From Deltaproteobacteria bacterium (lineage in GTDB: Bacteria; Desulfobacterota; Desulfomonilia; Desulfomonilales; Desulfomonilaceae): a stretch of DNA of 64,000 nucleotides. Every line of letters begins with the position of its first letter. The first letter of the stretch is position 1. The notes under the pieces were generated by a model. That model saw nothing but the letters and a program-made list of their open reading frames with translations, ran no database searches and was not told the origin of the DNA. Location of the stretch: the NCBI GenBank assembly GCA_021777225.1, contig JAJYDQ010000008.1, positions 1-64,000 of the forward strand, written 5' to 3'. Made by a program: the position numbers and the translations under genes. Below, piece after piece: positions 17,832 through 51,576 of this stretch.

Positions 17832-18236
17832 TTGGAAATTGGACGGCATAATCCCAAATTTGGAGGCTTTAACCTGAAAGACGGTCAAGGTGTAGGTTCA
17901 AAAACCCTGAAGCCGGAAAGTGGCCAAGACTCCAGATCATTTAAGGTGAAGCTGTTTGGCAGGGAATATATTGTTCGTGGCCGTGGTTCCGGAGATTATA
18001 TTGAGAGGCTTGTGGAGTTCATCAATTCCCGATCCGAAGAGATCAAGGGGAAATCGGGAGTTGTGAATACACTTGATCTCGCGATTCTCACATTGCTCAA
18101 CATAACGGATGAGCTTTTTGAATGTAGGCAGTCGATTTCAGGACAAATCGAGAGAATGGAGGAAGAAGACTACGGTCTCTTAAAACCCGGTGATCTGGGA
18201 GAGACTGATTTAAAAATTCCTCTGCGCGACTCGTGA
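17832..18236 (+). CDS. zapA: Cell division protein ZapA
   Basis: A 134-residue ZapA-like protein that would bundle FtsZ at the division ring. After a basic, unstructured N-terminus of about 35 residues, FKVKLFGREYIVRGRGSGDY forms the ZapA beta-hairpin head. YIERLVEFINSRSEEIK, LAILTLLNITDELF and a C-terminal coiled coil follow. The start is TTG at 17832. Position directly before a 6S RNA-like gene and rny matches the zapA-6S RNA-rny order common in deltaproteobacteria. Confidence 0.85.
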   Translation: MEIGRHNPKFGGFNLKDGQGVGSKTLKPESGQDSRSFKVKLFGREYIVRGRGSGDYIERLVEFINSRSEEIKGKSGVVNTLDLAILTLLNITDELFECRQSISGQIERMEEEDYGLLKPGDLGETDLKIPLRDS

Positions 18237-18267
18237 GGGATAGAGAATTTTTGAGCCAACACTCGAA

Positions 18268-18412
18268 AATTGGGATCTGTACCCGGTTGTGGTGTGCAAG
18301 CCTACCGTTGAAGTAGGAAGCCTGAAACAACCGCTAGGATCCCACCTGGGAAACCAGGTTCAAAAGTTCTATTGCCACGGTCGACTGCGGGGGATAAAAA
18401 CAACCTAGATTG
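18268..18412 (+). ncRNA. ssrS: 6S RNA candidate (ssrS)
   Basis: 6S RNA binds sigma70-RNA polymerase by mimicking an open promoter. The spacer between zapA and rny is the usual site. Sequence features agree: CCACCTGG-GAAA-CCAGGTTCAAAAG around 18341-18366 is a near-copy of the conserved apical hairpin; CCACGG followed by TGCGGGGG (18375-18393) can pair back with ACCCGGTTGTGG (18280-18291); GCCTGAAACAACCGC lies in the 5' half. Ends are approximate. The part from 18413 to 18606 shows nothing further that I can identify. Confidence 0.72.
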
Positions 18413-36327: not shown

Positions 36328-36351
36328 ACATAAAGGAGTCAACGAGTTACC

Positions 36352-36489
36352 GTGGAACAAACCCTTACAAAATTTGTTAGTAAGCTTGAGCGATCTTCAT
36401 TAACTAGTGTTCGTGAAACCGGTTTCCTGTTTTATTGGTGGCGCCGTTCAACTGTGACGGTGTGGTCCGCCCTGGATTGCTCAGTTTAA
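36352..36489 (+). CDS. Aromatic/tryptophan leader peptide
   Basis: A 45-codon ORF from GTG 36352 to TAA 36487-36489. Codons 25-30 read Phe-Leu-Phe-Tyr-Trp-Trp, with another Trp at codon 38. The tandem TGG codons (36436-36441) lie just before the first pairing arm of the attenuator, as in the classic trpL design. AAGGAG lies upstream but at a long spacing (about 13 bases), so initiation is the weakest part of the call. Phe and Tyr codons beside Trp suggest general aromatic sensing. Confidence 0.8.
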   Translation: MEQTLTKFVSKLERSSLTSVRETGFLFYWWRRSTVTVWSALDCSV

Positions 36490-36543
36490 CTACTCATTGT
36501 AGATAGACAACAAGGCCCACCGTCAAATGACGGTGGGTTTTTT
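36443..36543 (+). terminator. Trp-type transcription attenuator before trpE
   Basis: Four arms are visible. Arm 1 (36444-36450, CCGTTCA) pairs with arm 2 (36455-36460, TGACGG) around a 4-base loop with one bulge. Arm 2 extended (36455-36462, TGACGGTG) pairs perfectly with part of arm 3 (36518-36525, CACCGTCA) to make the antiterminator. Arm 3 (36516-36525, CCCACCGTCA) pairs perfectly with arm 4 (36528-36537, TGACGGTGGG), followed by TTTTTT, an intrinsic terminator. Arms 2 and 4 are near copies. A ribosome stalled on the Trp codons would mask arm 1 and favour readthrough into trpE. Confidence 0.9.
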
Positions 36544-46116: not shown

Positions 46117-46980
46117 GTGAGCGACACAGACTTTAGGAAAGCCAATGTTTGCATAGTAGGTGGAAAGGGTCGTATGGGACGCTGGTTTGGATCGCTATTT
46201 CAAAAAGCGGGTATGGACACGATCACCTCGGACCTGGACGATAGTCCACTTCCAGAAACGTCTGTAGCCTCTTTCGATGTTGTCATTTTGGCGGTCCCGG
46301 TGACGGCGATCGAAGGTGTGATGAGATCAATAGGACGGTTTATAAGACCCGACGCTCTGTTAATGGACATATCCTCTATCAAGAGAGACCCTATAAATTT
46401 TATGCTCAAATATTCACAGAGCGAAGTAATAGGAACACATCCTTTTTTCGGCCCATCTACTGCTTCTCTTTTAGATCAGGTTGTCTTTATCTGCCCGTCA
46501 CGAACCGAAAAATGGATCAAACCCTTAAGAAATTTCTTGGAAGAGCAGGGCGCAAAGATTACCGAAATCGCCCCTGATGGTCATGACAAACTTATGGCGT
46601 GTTTCCAAACCTTGAGACATCTAATGCTTACTTCTCTTGGGCAAACATTGATAAGGTTAGGTTTTGACTCACATCTTCAGCTTCAGGCAACAGGAGCGTG
46701 GTTTGATCAACTGCTGGCAATGATGCGGCGCCAGTTCGAACAGCCTTCGGAACTTTATGCTGACCTTGCTATTGAAAATCCCTATTCGTCCGAGACACTT
46801 AAACTGTTCAGCGATAGTTTAAACGAAATAGCTAATCTTGTTTCTACCGGAAACAGAGATGGACTTGTTAGCGCCATGGATGAAGTGGCTCATTTTTGTG
46901 CGACAGAAGCAACGTCAAATGTTTCCCAATGGGGTTGGTGGCGCGACATAGGAGGAGATTCCCGGCATATCGAGGTCTGA
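46117..46980 (+). CDS. tyrA: Prephenate dehydrogenase; 3' end doubles as probable trp leader
   Basis: Oxidative decarboxylation of prephenate to 4-hydroxyphenylpyruvate. The 287-residue product has VCIVGGKGRMGRWFGSLFQK as NAD(P) site, MDISSIKRDP, GTHPFFGPS with the catalytic His, and DGHDKLMACFQTLRHLM. It starts at GTG 46117 and resembles the dehydrogenase half of the E. coli T-protein, without a mutase domain. The end is unusual: three of its six Trp codons fall in QWGWWRD, 11 residues before the stop, right before a terminator (see the attenuator at 46930-47052). The terminal aminotransferase is not in the window. Confidence 0.92.
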   Translation: MSDTDFRKANVCIVGGKGRMGRWFGSLFQKAGMDTITSDLDDSPLPETSVASFDVVILAVPVTAIEGVMRSIGRFIRPDALLMDISSIKRDPINFMLKYSQSEVIGTHPFFGPSTASLLDQVVFICPSRTEKWIKPLRNFLEEQGAKITEIAPDGHDKLMACFQTLRHLMLTSLGQTLIRLGFDSHLQLQATGAWFDQLLAMMRRQFEQPSELYADLAIENPYSSETLKLFSDSLNEIANLVSTGNRDGLVSAMDEVAHFCATEATSNVSQWGWWRDIGGDSRHIEV

Positions 46981-47052
46981 TTAAGCCCTTACAACAGACA
47001 ACATAAGGCCGTGAATCTCAAAGCCAACAGGATTCACGGCCTTTTCTTTTTT
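46930..47052 (+). terminator. Attenuator before trpD, with tyrA 3' end as apparent leader
   Basis: A 13-bp perfect terminator: AAGGCCGTGAATC (47005-47017) with GATTCACGGCCTT (47031-47043), then TTTTCTTTTTT (47042-47052). Inside tyrA, GATTCCCGGC (46957-46966) is a near-copy of the terminator's 3' arm and can pair with the 5' arm GCCGTGAATC (47008-47017) at nine of ten positions. It starts 16 bases after the tandem Trp codons (46936-46941), against 14 bases in the trpE leader. The tyrA stop is at 46978-46980, so a terminating ribosome would cover it. This predicts control by charged tRNA-Trp. Confidence 0.75.
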
Positions 47053-47076
47053 AACGAATAGGATTTGGAGGATACC

Positions 47077-48114
47077 ATGATTAAGGATTCAATAGAAAAA
47101 GCGGTTTCAGGAAATGACATCTCTGAGGCCCAGATGATGGAGACTATGGCAGAGATAATGGAAGGCCGCGCAACTCAAGCTCAGATCGGCGCCCTCCTGG
47201 TAGCTTTGAGGATGAAAGGCGAGACAGTTGAAGAAATTACGGCCGCTGCAAAAGTGATGCGATCCAAGAGTTCTCACATACCTTACAAATGCGAGGAAGG
47301 AGAAATTCTCATCGACACATGCGGTACTGGAGGCGATTGCTCCAATACCTTTAATGTTTCAACTACCGCGGCGTTTGTTGTTGCAGGCGCTGGAGTAAAG
47401 GTAGCTAAACACGGAAATCGGTCCGTCTCAAGCAAATGCGGCAGCGCGGACTTGATGGAAGCCCTGGGATTGCCGTTGGACCTTTCCCCAGAGCAGGTCG
47501 CCTTGTGCATACGGCAAGTAGGTATCGGCTTCCTGTTTGCTCCTGTTTTACACTCCGCCATGAAATACGCTATCGGTCCCAGACGTGAGTTGGGGCTTCG
47601 GACGATTTTCAACCTCTTGGGACCGTTAACTAATCCTGCCGGAGCGCAGGTTCAGTTGATGGGGGTATACGACAATCAGATGGTCAAACCATTAACTCAT
47701 GTGATAGCAAGACTTGGGGCCAAAAAGGCCTTTGTCGTTCATGGTCACGGTGGACTGGATGAAATCAGCCTTAGTGGACCAACACTAGTTGGATTAGCCG
47801 AGAATGGCGAAGTTTCATTCAGATATATGGAACCATCAGATTTTGGCTTGAAAGGTAATACTTCGATAACAATCGGTGGTGGAAATGCTCAGGAGAACGC
47901 GGTTCTCACCAAATCTGTGCTAAACGGAAAATCTGGATCGTATAGAGATGTGGTTCTTTTAAATGCAGCCGCTGCTTTGGTGGCGGCTGATCGAGCCAAG
48001 ACCCTCATGGAGGGGATGGCTTTGTCAACGTTTTCAATTGATTCAGGGGCCGCGTTGAACAAACTCGATGCACTGATCAAATGCGCTAGGTCTCTGAAGG
48101 ATGGAGGACACTAA
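47077..48114 (+). CDS. trpD: Anthranilate phosphoribosyltransferase
   Basis: Joins anthranilate to PRPP. The 345-residue product has DTCGTGGDCSNTFNVSTTAA for PRPP, KHGNRSVSSKCGSADLMEAL for anthranilate, and FLFAPVLHSAMKYAIGPRRE with RTIFNLLGPLTNPA. ATG 47077 has GGAGG upstream; the frame also opens at TTG 47065. It is the first gene of block 3, after the terminator described above. Here TrpD is not fused to TrpG. Confidence 0.97.
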   Translation: MIKDSIEKAVSGNDISEAQMMETMAEIMEGRATQAQIGALLVALRMKGETVEEITAAAKVMRSKSSHIPYKCEEGEILIDTCGTGGDCSNTFNVSTTAAFVVAGAGVKVAKHGNRSVSSKCGSADLMEALGLPLDLSPEQVALCIRQVGIGFLFAPVLHSAMKYAIGPRRELGLRTIFNLLGPLTNPAGAQVQLMGVYDNQMVKPLTHVIARLGAKKAFVVHGHGGLDEISLSGPTLVGLAENGEVSFRYMEPSDFGLKGNTSITIGGGNAQENAVLTKSVLNGKSGSYRDVVLLNAAAALVAADRAKTLMEGMALSTFSIDSGAALNKLDALIKCARSLKDGGH

Positions 48115-48916
48115 CTTGCTAGCCCCAACACACGATTTTTTCCACACGGTAATTGAGAACAAAAAACGGGAAGTTGAAAAGCTCAAAGCGATTGGAATGA
48201 CAATGCTGGGAATGCTTGCCGACGCGGCGCCTAAACCTCTTAATTTCCTTGAAAAATTTCAGGGCGATAGATCGGTCCCAATTATCGCGGAAATAAAGAA
48301 ATCTGCGCCATCCTGGAATGGTCTGAAAAAAAATGTTGATATTGTAAATGTCGCCAAAGCGTACCAGTATAACGGCGCCGCAGCCATATCCGTTCTTACC
48401 GATTCTCAATTCTTTGGCGGCTCCATTGACGATTTGACCACAGTCCGTTATCAAGTCAGCCTTCCGCTACTGAGAAAGGACTTCATTATAGGAGTTGAGC
48501 AGTTATACGAATCAAGGGCGGCGCAGGCTGACGCTGTGTTGCTCATAGTGGCGATCCTGGATGACTATGAACTCTCAAGACTATATAATAGCGCCTTGTC
48601 CTTCGGCATGACCCCACTTCTCGAAGTACACGACGAGCATGAAGCGCAAAGGGCGCTTAAGCTTGATCCGCGTTTAATCGGTATCAACAACCGCAATCTG
48701 AAAACACTTGGGGTAGACCTTGGCGTCTCAGAGCGACTCAGAAAGAAGATTCCTGAGGATGTTATCGTAATAGCGGAGAGCGGCGTAGCGACTGTGGCTG
48801 ATGTCCAAAGACTCCTGGCCGCTGGGGTCAATGGGTTCCTTATCGGGACGGCTTTAATGAAATCCGCTGACCCAGGAAAGACGCTGAATTCATTTGTCAG
48901 CGTTAGGAGGGCATGA
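48101..48916 (+). CDS. trpC: Indole-3-glycerol phosphate synthase
   Basis: Ring closure of CdRP to indole-3-glycerol phosphate. The 271-residue barrel has PIIAEIKKSAPSWN with the catalytic Lys, LTDSQFFGGSIDDLTTVR, LLRKDFIIGVEQLYE, LLEVHDEHEAQRAL, GINNRNLKTLGVDL and IAESGV. The common EIKxxSPS reads EIKKSAPS. ATG 48101 overlaps trpD by 14 bp; a TTG at 48116, with GGAGG eight bases upstream, is an equally good start. Confidence 0.95.
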   Translation: MEDTNLLAPTHDFFHTVIENKKREVEKLKAIGMTMLGMLADAAPKPLNFLEKFQGDRSVPIIAEIKKSAPSWNGLKKNVDIVNVAKAYQYNGAAAISVLTDSQFFGGSIDDLTTVRYQVSLPLLRKDFIIGVEQLYESRAAQADAVLLIVAILDDYELSRLYNSALSFGMTPLLEVHDEHEAQRALKLDPRLIGINNRNLKTLGVDLGVSERLRKKIPEDVIVIAESGVATVADVQRLLAAGVNGFLIGTALMKSADPGKTLNSFVSVRRA

Positions 48917-49533
48917 TGGTTCGTGTCAAAATTTGTGGAATTACCAGTTCTGAAGACGCTTTTTCCGCCGCCGCAATGGGGGCCGACGCCATAGGTTTTG
49001 TATTCGCTCCAAGCCCCAGGCAGGTTTCATTGGACAAGGCATTTGAAATATCACGGTCCTTACCGCCTTTTGTTCAGACAGTTGGGGTCTTTGCTGACGC
49101 TGACATTGAAGAAGTAATTTTCTTCAGAAATCATTTACGATTGGATCTTGTTCAGTTAAGTGGATCAGAGACCGACGCCTACATTCACGCGTTGGGATCA
49201 AGGGTAATTAAGGCGGTCCACATAAAAAATGGATTCAAACCAGAGCCCAATATCCACGCTGCAGCTACCATCCTTCTGGATACCGCCGCAGACGGATTGA
49301 AGGGCGGAACGGGGAGGGCTTTTGATTGGGACCTAGCAGCGGACGTGGCGGTTAAGCGACCTATAATTCTAGCGGGCGGGTTAACACCGGAAAATGTGGA
49401 GACGGCCGTTAGAAAAGTTCACCCTTATGCGGTAGACGTTTCCGGTGGAGTAGAAATAGAACCAGGTAGGAAGGACCATGACAAAATTAGGAATTTTATA
49501 CAAAGAGCAAAAACAGCGGGCTTCAACGCCTGA
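48913..49533 (+). CDS. trpF: Phosphoribosylanthranilate isomerase
   Basis: Isomerises PRA to CdRP. The 206-residue barrel has [12 protein letters not shown] with the catalytic Cys, [24 protein letters not shown], the catalytic Asp in [29 protein letters not shown] and VDVSGGVE. It overlaps trpC by 4 bp and trpB by 56 bp, which is long but leaves both domains intact. Confidence 0.95.
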
Positions 49534-50770
49534 TCAAAACGGTTACTTCGGCAGATTCGGGGGCCGTTTTGTTCCGGAAACACTTATGCCTGCGTTAGAA
49601 GAGCTGTCAGAAACGTACGACGGAGTGAAAAATGATCCATCATTTGGGGCTGAGCTAACGGGCCTTCTCAAAAATTTCGCCGGCCGCGAGACCCCTTTGT
49701 ATTATGCAAGGCGATTTTCTGAAAAACTTGGAGGCGCCAGGATTTTTCTGAAGCGTGAGGACTTGACACACACCGGCGCGCATAAAATCAATAACGCTCT
49801 TGGACAAGTGTTGCTGGCTGTGAGGATGGGCAAGACAAGGATAATCGCGGAAACTGGGGCGGGGCAGCATGGGGTCGCCACAGCAACCGCCGCAGCGCTC
49901 ATGGGACTGGAATGTGTTGTCTACATGGGGAGTCTGGATATTGAACGGCAGGCCCTAAATGTAACACGTATGAAAATGTTGGGGGCGCAGGTTGTCCCGG
50001 TCAATGATGGTAGTTGTTCTCTCAAAGATGCTGTAAACGCAGCGATTCGCGATTGGGTAACAAATGTCGCCAGCACTCACTACATAATAGGATCAGTAAT
50101 CGGACCTCATCCATATCCCATGATTGTTCGGGATTTTCAGTCAGTTATTGGAAAAGAGGCCAGGAAACAGATGCTCGAACAGGCCGGAAAACTGCCCGAT
50201 GTCGCAGTCGCGTGTGTAGGGGCGGGCAGTAACGCCATCGGGCTTTTTCACGCGTTTCTGGCTGATCCCGTTCGTTTAATTGGAGTTGAAGCCGGGGGAT
50301 ACGGCCTGGATACCGGACGTCATGCTGCCAGCCTGTGCGCCGGTAGCCCCGGGGTTCTACATGGTGCGCTCCTTTACCTGTTGCAGGACGAAAACGGTCA
50401 AATCACTGAGGCCCATTCTATTGCCGCGGGATTAGACTACCCTGGAGTAGGGCCTGAACATGGGATGCTCAAGGATATCGAACGAGTCACATATGTTTCA
50501 GTTACTGATCAGGAAGCTGTTCAGGGTTTCATGGAGCTTGCGCGCATTGAGGGTATAATACCGGCCCTCGAAAGCGCTCACGCAATCGCATACCTCATGA
50601 AATTCGCGGGGAGCATGTCCAAAGATGAAACAATCCTGGTATGTCTTTCCGGCCGCGGTGACAAGGATGTGTCCCAAGTGGCGGAATATCTTGATTCAAA
50701 AAGAATTGCGGGTTTGGATGAAAATGTTTCGAACACCGCCAATCACGCTTCGACTTCCGCGGAGAATTAA
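49478..50770 (+). CDS. trpB: Tryptophan synthase beta chain
   Basis: PLP enzyme joining indole and serine. The 430-residue product has [38 protein letters not shown] with the PLP Lys, [34 protein letters not shown] for the phosphate, [10 protein letters not shown] and CLSGRGDKD. It is a TrpB1-type chain that pairs with TrpA. The N-terminal 15 residues are encoded within the trpF 3' end, with AGGAAGG before the ATG. A C-terminal tail of about 25 residues is extra. Confidence 0.97.
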
Positions 50771-50772
50771 AA

Positions 50773-51576
50773 ATGATTTCTAAAATAACCTCACAATTTG
50801 AAAAGGCGGCCAGGCAAAATCGTGCGGCCTACGTTCCGTTTATAATGGGAGGTTTTCCCGATGATCACGCATTTGTTCTATTATTAAAGGCCCTGGATAA
50901 TTGCTCCGCAGATGTCATTGAGGTCGGGATCCCGTTTTCTGATCCGCTAGCCGATGGACCTACTATACAAAAAGCCGGCAAAATTGCTCTGGATAATGGG
51001 GCCAGCCTTGGCAAGATACTGGGAACACTTAATGATGTAAGCGTCGATATCCACGCGCCAATTGTTCTGATGACATATTGGAACCCCGTTCTAAGGATGG
51101 GAGTAGACGAGTTTGGTGATAAGGCCAAAGCAGCAAACATTTCCGGTGTTATCATCCCCGATTTGCCGCCGGATGAAGCCGGATATTGGATTAAGGTTGC
51201 ACGCTCCCACGAAATCGACACAATTTTCATGGTTGCCCCTACCACGACTCCAAAAAGACTTGAAACAATCGTGAATTTGTCAAAAGGATTTGTTTATTTG
51301 GTGTCCATGACAGGGGTCACTGGGAGTGCTTTAGTTGTTGACGATGAATTGCTAAAAACAGTGGCCAACGTGAAAAGGTTGACGTCCGTTCCTGTAGCGG
51401 TCGGTTTTGGGGTGTCAAATTCAGAGCAGGCGGCGGCGCTGTCAAATGTAGCCGACGGGGTGATAGTGGGCAGCGCCCTGATTAAAAAGTGTCTCGAAGC
51501 TGGTGATGACGTAAGCGCAATTGATGGTGTTTCGAGTTTGTCCCGCGGCATAATCGGCGCATTAGGCAGGAATTAA
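50773..51576 (+). CDS. trpA: Tryptophan synthase alpha chain
   Basis: Splits indole-3-glycerol phosphate to indole, channelled to TrpB. The 267-residue barrel has YVPFIMGGFPD, VIEVGIPFSDPLADGPTIQ with the catalytic Glu, IVLMTYWNPVLRMGVDEF, GVIIPDLPPDEA with the catalytic Asp, VYLVSMTGVTGS and GFGVSNSEQ. It starts 3 bp after trpB and closes the supraoperon. No strong terminator was seen in the 140-bp spacer that follows. Confidence 0.96.
   Translation: MISKITSQFEKAARQNRAAYVPFIMGGFPDDHAFVLLLKALDNCSADVIEVGIPFSDPLADGPTIQKAGKIALDNGASLGKILGTLNDVSVDIHAPIVLMTYWNPVLRMGVDEFGDKAKAANISGVIIPDLPPDEAGYWIKVARSHEIDTIFMVAPTTTPKRLETIVNLSKGFVYLVSMTGVTGSALVVDDELLKTVANVKRLTSVPVAVGFGVSNSEQAAALSNVADGVIVGSALIKKCLEAGDDVSAIDGVSSLSRGIIGALGRN

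Follow-up and report, generated by a model that had tools for sequence, protein, structure and literature searches.

Leader peptides are regarded as short ORFs that are dedicated to this role and disposable. The classical representative is the E. coli trpL type (Rfam RF00513, Trp_leader), with tandem Trp codons, competition between arms 2, 3 and 4 and a U tract, located ahead of the trp genes. E. coli rph-pyrE represents another arrangement, in which the response to uracil/UTP relies on coupling and amino-acid regulatory codons are absent. In this system, the 3' end of the upstream enzyme gene runs to the attenuator and translation decides readthrough (PMC2784333). For tyrA-containing supraoperons, including that of Desulfovibrio vulgaris, a review of TyrA describes attenuators that are located ahead of the supraoperon and are not built into tyrA (PMC1173090). 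Attenuator surveys search intergenic regions and short ORFs (e.g., PMC2965389), and thus overlook devices located within the ends of enzyme genes.

The tyrA-trpD junction analysed here is, in all likelihood, a ribosome-mediated trp attenuator whose leader peptide is the C-terminus of TyrA (prephenate dehydrogenase), derived from a fused separate leader ORF. It resembles the trpL type in all the features listed above, and the stretch GGUUGGUGGCGC matches the consensus region of RF00513; the differences are that the leader is the C-terminus of a 287-aa enzyme rather than a dedicated ORF, that the device is located mid-operon, and that arm 1 is weak. The Rfam matches at this site are all below threshold, with RF00513 scoring 14.3 bits against a gathering threshold of 41. 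With rph-pyrE the junction shares the upstream enzyme gene whose 3' end reaches the attenuator, and unlike rph-pyrE, the tyrA tail contains regulatory Trp codons and a 2:3 antiterminator. The proposal of the initial annotation that the 3' end of tyrA serves as the trp leader for trpDCFBA is supported, at the level of sequence, by the conserved junction, the arms and the separate leaders of relatives. The same annotation considered this design unknown for trp operons, which has to be qualified because rph-pyrE is a precedent in principle, although not one that works by stalling at amino-acid codons; the open-access literature searched yielded no amino-acid attenuator whose leader forms the terminal part of a preceding enzyme gene. 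Thus, trp attenuation and the gating of an attenuator by the end of an enzyme gene are known, and the comparative evidence supports as new a codon-stalling leader fused to an enzyme C-terminus; a response to Trp has not been shown.

The window (the whole stretch of DNA analysed, 64,000 nt) belongs to a 76 kb contig of a 4.0 Mb genome that is 97.6% complete, and the named entries that match it best are MAGs with the labels uncultured Desulfomonile sp., Desulfomonile tiedjei and Syntrophaceae bacterium. A 6S RNA is encoded at 18216-18397 (Rfam RF00013, 111.8 bits). The supraoperon of interest has the gene order trpE-trpG-aroA-aroE-aroKB-aroC-aroQ-DAHP synthase-pheA-tyrA-trpD-C-F-B-A, with gene names assigned by homology and confirmed with Pfam for tyrA, trpD and pheA. 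All features described below are on the forward strand. The tyrA ORF (46117..46980) encodes a protein with the PDH_N (residues 48-149) and PDH_C (153-255) domains. It is followed by the first putatively controlled gene, trpD (47077..48114, ATG at 47077, Glycos_transf_3), and by the ORFs of trpC, trpF, trpB and trpA (48101..51576), for which synteny in relatives was detected by tblastn. The longest ORF for trpB shares 56 nt with the 3' end of trpF (49478-49533), and the real trpB start is probably located more 3'.

At the junction, all coordinates of the initial annotation are exact on re-reading of the sequence. The 3' end of tyrA reads TGG GGT TGG TGG CGC GAC ATA GGA GGA GAT TCC CGG CAT ATC GAG GTC TGA, with the putative regulatory Trp codons (TGG-GGT-TGG-TGG, 46930..46941) at 46930-46932, 46936-46938 and 46939-46941 and the stop codon at 46978-46980. 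These last 17 codons of tyrA encode the fused leader-peptide segment WGWWRDIGGDSRHIEV (46930..46980). Arm 2 (GAGATTCCCGGC, 46955..46966), the 5' strand of the antiterminator, lies within tyrA. Its core, GATTCCCGGC (46957-46966), pairs at nine of ten positions with GCCGTGAATC (47008-47017) as had been claimed, and lengthening of the duplex gives 11 of 12, with GAGATTC:GAATCTC; the corresponding segment of arm 4 is GATTCACGGC (47031-47040). The claimed U-tailed terminator consists of arm 3 (AAGGCCGTGAATC, 47005..47017) and arm 4 (GATTCACGGCCTT, 47031..47043), which form 13 perfect base pairs, followed by the U tract TTTTCTTTTTT (47042..47052), and is borne out by folding (z = -6.8, none of 200 shuffles as good). 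A strong terminator could merely end the tyrA transcription unit, with trpDCFBA transcribed from its own nearby promoter. The ATG of trpD, however, is only 24 nt 3' of the U tract, which forces such a promoter to lie within or 5' of the terminator, so that its transcripts would still meet the terminator; moreover, the conserved arm 2 is left unexplained, which makes this possibility scarcely credible. An in-frame start that is conserved and has a ribosome-binding site was not found near the 5' side of the Trp codons in the genomes of the genus (there is no ATG in this region in L006 and L007), and the tail is therefore most likely translated only within TyrA.

In the proposed mechanism, the ribosome that finishes TyrA would trail RNA polymerase through tyrA. 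When Trp-tRNA is scarce, it would wait on the TGG codons at 46930-46941 and leave arm 2 free to pair with the emerging arm 3, so that the terminator would be blocked and trpDCFBA transcribed. When Trp is plentiful, the ribosome would reach the tyrA stop codon and cover arm 2, in which case arms 3 and 4 would pair and transcription would end before trpD. The ribosome positions and the dependence of readthrough on Trp are inferences, and there are no expression data. The junction meets the criteria of a trp attenuator in having clustered Trp codons in a translated frame just 5' of the attenuator (the tyrA frame, in 7/7 genomes of the genus), an intrinsic terminator ahead of the trp structural genes, and a 2:3 antiterminator that depends on the ribosome position and excludes the terminator (in computed folds, 7/7), and fails that of a dedicated short leader ORF with its own start. 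One criterion of the rph-pyrE type also applies, as the tyrA frame runs without interruption up to 46980, immediately before the terminator, in all 7 genomes; translation itself is inferred. The other, control without amino-acid regulatory codons, is not fulfilled.

Folding is compatible with this mechanism. The isolated antiterminator (46953-47029 folded alone) has z = -4.2, with none of 200 shuffles as good, and arm 2 pairs with the 5' arm of the terminator in all 7 genomes of the genus. Mononucleotide-shuffled tails match the observed 2:3 energy in only 3-9 of 2000 cases in six genomes and in 68 of 2000 in L005, and synonymous recodings match the observed 2:3 pairing in 2-10% of cases; within a single genome the recoding control is thus weak, and the argument relies on conservation and on changes across clades. 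The prediction that a ribosome stalled on the Trp codons frees arm 2 and one at the stop codon blocks the pairing agrees with the modelled folds: a ribosome placed over ~20-26 nt counted from the first Trp codon, in the absence of arm 4, yields the antiterminator in 7/7 genomes, and with a ribosome on the tyrA stop arms 2 and 3 pair in 0/7. In the former state, the antiterminator encloses a small conserved hairpin, GUCUG (46975-46979) with CAGAC (46995-46999), which is part of the 7-genome consensus fold (46975..46999) and overlaps the tyrA stop codon. Without a ribosome, the antiterminator forms in the model before arm 4 is made, which predicts readthrough when tyrA is not translated, unlike in E. 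coli. With arm 4 present, the terminator is always the more stable structure, and the switch must accordingly be kinetic. A decision based on timing is usual for such attenuators. Kinetic timing has been modelled for E. coli trp (PMC1183508). The plain fold of 46900-47080, which had been suggested as a check, is uninformative (z = -0.6), and the expected structures are visible only when folding follows the order of transcription.

The reported inability to identify an arm 1 largely stands. There is a candidate (UUGGUGGC-CG, 46935..46945) that, in the consensus fold, pairs weakly with arm 2 and the sequence just 3' of it (to 46973), forming a 1:2 hairpin over the Trp codons, but this hairpin is not more stable than those of shuffled sequences in the window (z = +1.5) and L005 (+0.7) and only slightly more stable in L006 (-0.8). 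In E. coli, the 1:2 pause hairpin synchronises the polymerase and the ribosome. An additional point against the model is that the other Trp codons of tyrA (23, 133 and 195) are possible earlier waiting sites for starved ribosomes. Coupling of the rph-pyrE kind, in which any slowing or uncoupling near the end of tyrA alters termination without specificity for Trp codons, would look the same in topology, with a preceding enzyme gene whose 3' end reaches the attenuator, and the stop-codon position is known to matter in rph-pyrE (PMC2784333). Such coupling, however, does not account for three TGG in four codons, to which Trp clusters correspond in relatives with separate leaders, for a dedicated arm 2 that forms an antiterminator, or for the fact that the downstream genes are trp genes, and appears very unlikely.

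The same tyrA-terminator-trpD junction is present in all 7 genomes of the genus, which consists of uncultured sulfate-reducer-like bacteria: tyrA ends with (W/C)GWWRDxxGDSRHxxV before the stop codon and is followed by the 13-bp U-tailed terminator and trpD. The Trp codons are found in all 7, except that the first of the three is lost in L005, where it is TGC (a point against the model), and the C:U mismatch of the 2:3 pairing is a G:U pair in L006 and L007. Among the 395 genomes of the phylum that were scanned, 393 lack the tail pattern, and the 2 positives are members of the genus. Outside the tail, TyrA identity across the genus drops to 52%, whereas the tail is nearly frozen at the nucleotide level, with 91% identical synonymous codons in the 17-codon tail vs 54% in the remaining tyrA, and 78% vs 39% invariant nucleotides; between the window and L006, synonymous codons are identical at 9 of 10 positions in the tail and at 46 of 128 in the rest. 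No segment of equal length elsewhere in tyrA comes near these values (the best are 0.70 and 0.61). The tail is beyond PDH_C, which ends at residue 255, and an AlphaFold model assigns pLDDT < 50 to residues 267-287, the remaining TyrA being well folded; thus, the tail is predicted to be disordered, and a role in the enzyme fold fails to explain its conservation. Together with the conservation of silent sites, this points to RNA rather than protein constraint, as far as can be judged from alignments and predicted structure. The tail is also conserved at the amino-acid level, and intrinsic partial terminators are common inside operons, so that the tail might be a functional protein motif of TyrA, with the hairpin being a partial terminator that fixes a lower level of trpDCFBA without sensing Trp. 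This explanation is unlikely given that the silent positions of a tail predicted to be disordered and beyond the domain are almost as frozen as the protein, that in relatives with a shorter tyrA the Trp codons and the arms are retained within a separate ORF, and that the antiterminator pairing departs from shuffled sequences to the extent given above.

Genomes of the Desulfarculaceae type have the identical gene order pheA-tyrA-trpD-C-F-B-A; in these, tyrA ends earlier and the gap of 183-418 nt before trpD contains one or two separate leader ORFs rich in Trp, with a terminator after each. Separate leaders before trpD were identified in L012 and L044-L054 (tyrA-trpD gap) and in L135 from the sister genus (aroF-trpD); examples are MFATCWRYWWWYEDRSGPPASVR and MFNTAWRYWWRNWNRSGPPAPGR. 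These leaders are similar to the fused tail in their position before trpD, with tyrA directly 5' in Desulfarculaceae, in their Trp codons and in the order and spacing of the arms, and differ in being free-standing ORFs with their own starts, preceded by a shorter tyrA, and, in several cases, in having tandem attenuators. The leaders of L012 and L048 have their last Trp 12 codons ahead of the stop, the same as in the fused tail. Across the separate leaders, arm 2 is located inside the leader, close after the Trp codons, and in most of them the distance from its end to arm 3 is 29-41 nt, which agrees with the genus. The arms differ by clade and the pairing is kept, with GATTC/GAATC in the genus vs GGTCC/GGACC in Desulfarculaceae, i.e., two double-sided changes. 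The covariation of arms 2 and 3 called for by the initial annotation is therefore found as compensatory changes within a conserved anatomy, and related junctions retain both the Trp codons and the arm complementarity, the joint absence of which had been named as grounds for refutation. The simple duplex scan recovers only a long bulged duplex in L012 and L048, yet the match GGTCCAC:GTGGACC is visible, and it detects no convincing arm 2 in L135. The relatives also speak against arrest of the TnaC type, in which the TyrA tail in the exit tunnel would sense free tryptophan and stall the ribosome, as a conserved Trp-rich C-terminal peptide might suggest: their leaders share the Trp codons and the arms, not the peptide (WGWWRDIGGDSRHIEV vs WRYWWWYEDRSGPPASVR or WRYWRWQTAWGRPLPLEV), and arrest at plentiful Trp is the wrong direction for biosynthetic genes, making this reading extremely improbable.

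Two tandem trp attenuators before trpD, each with its own leader ORF and terminator, are present in L044, L045, L049, L050, L052, L142 and L144; the arms of the second ones are unrelated to those of the first (e.g., GGGAGTCCG with CGGACTCCC). A motif containing TGTATACA (e.g., TTTTTGTATACA, GGTATACTGTATACAAAA), possibly a promoter or operator, is located between tyrA and the separate leader in L045, L046, L048-L050, L052 and L012.

The simplest reading of these comparisons is that a separate trp leader ORF formerly present at the junction was fused in frame to tyrA once, at the root of the genus. The TrpD tree places the genomes with the fused leader in one clade (100/98), which is sister to G012, a member of the same family (100/99), and next to Desulfarculaceae (82/84). 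In G012, the nearest relative by TrpD, the separate leader follows the DAHP synthase gene (L135), tyrA is encoded elsewhere and lacks the tail, and the two contigs with trpD share an identical overlap of 141 nt. The leader frame of L145 and L147 extends without a stop back through the tyrA 3' end (203 and 202 codons, respectively), so that a single indel could have joined the leader and tyrA; both the direction of the fusion and this route are inferred. Other Desulfomonilaceae (g4, g5, g6, g8, g9 and g11) have no such device, and their trpD follows trpE or trpG, except for the second trpD copy of G013, which follows neither and also lacks the device; these genomes neither support nor contradict an attenuator in the tyrA tail. 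The TrpD proteins of the genus and G012 group with Desulfarculaceae rather than with the other members of their own family, which suggests either acquisition of the trp block by transfer or its replacement in the other family members.

The supraoperon contains a further attenuator before trpE (36351..36542), in an ordinary separate leader ORF that starts with GTG at 36351 and ends with FYWWRRSTVTVWSALDCSV and a stop codon. The leader reported there, with its own arms, is real and is conserved in the six genomes in which trpE was found (homologous loci L168-L173), with the peptide FYWWR(R/H)... and its own terminator. It shares with the tyrA tail the Trp codons, the arm duplication and the terminator, and differs in its separate ORF and its location at the 5' end of the operon. 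Its Trp_leader score is 21.4 bits, below the threshold, and the trp leaders of the studied group are missed by Rfam because they score under the Trp_leader threshold. Trp thus seems to be checked at two points of the supraoperon, on either side of the aro-pheA-tyrA block, and we infer that the inner check could permit expression of this block without trpDCFBA.

The separate-leader state in relatives and the fused state throughout the genus make the evolutionary step visible and open to testing, and the strong conservation of a disordered C-terminal protein tail can have its cause in the RNA rather than in the protein. Judging from comparative sequence evidence only, completion of one enzyme, TyrA, appears to decide the transcription of the next five tryptophan genes. 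More tentatively, and less probably than not, the TyrA tail may be viewed as a domesticated codon-stalling leader on the enzyme of a competing branch, such that Trp shortage would both delay the completion of TyrA and open trpDCFBA, adjusting the two branches reciprocally. If this is the case, delayed TyrA would divert prephenate and chorismate from tyrosine, and a single stalled ribosome would tune two branches of the pathway.
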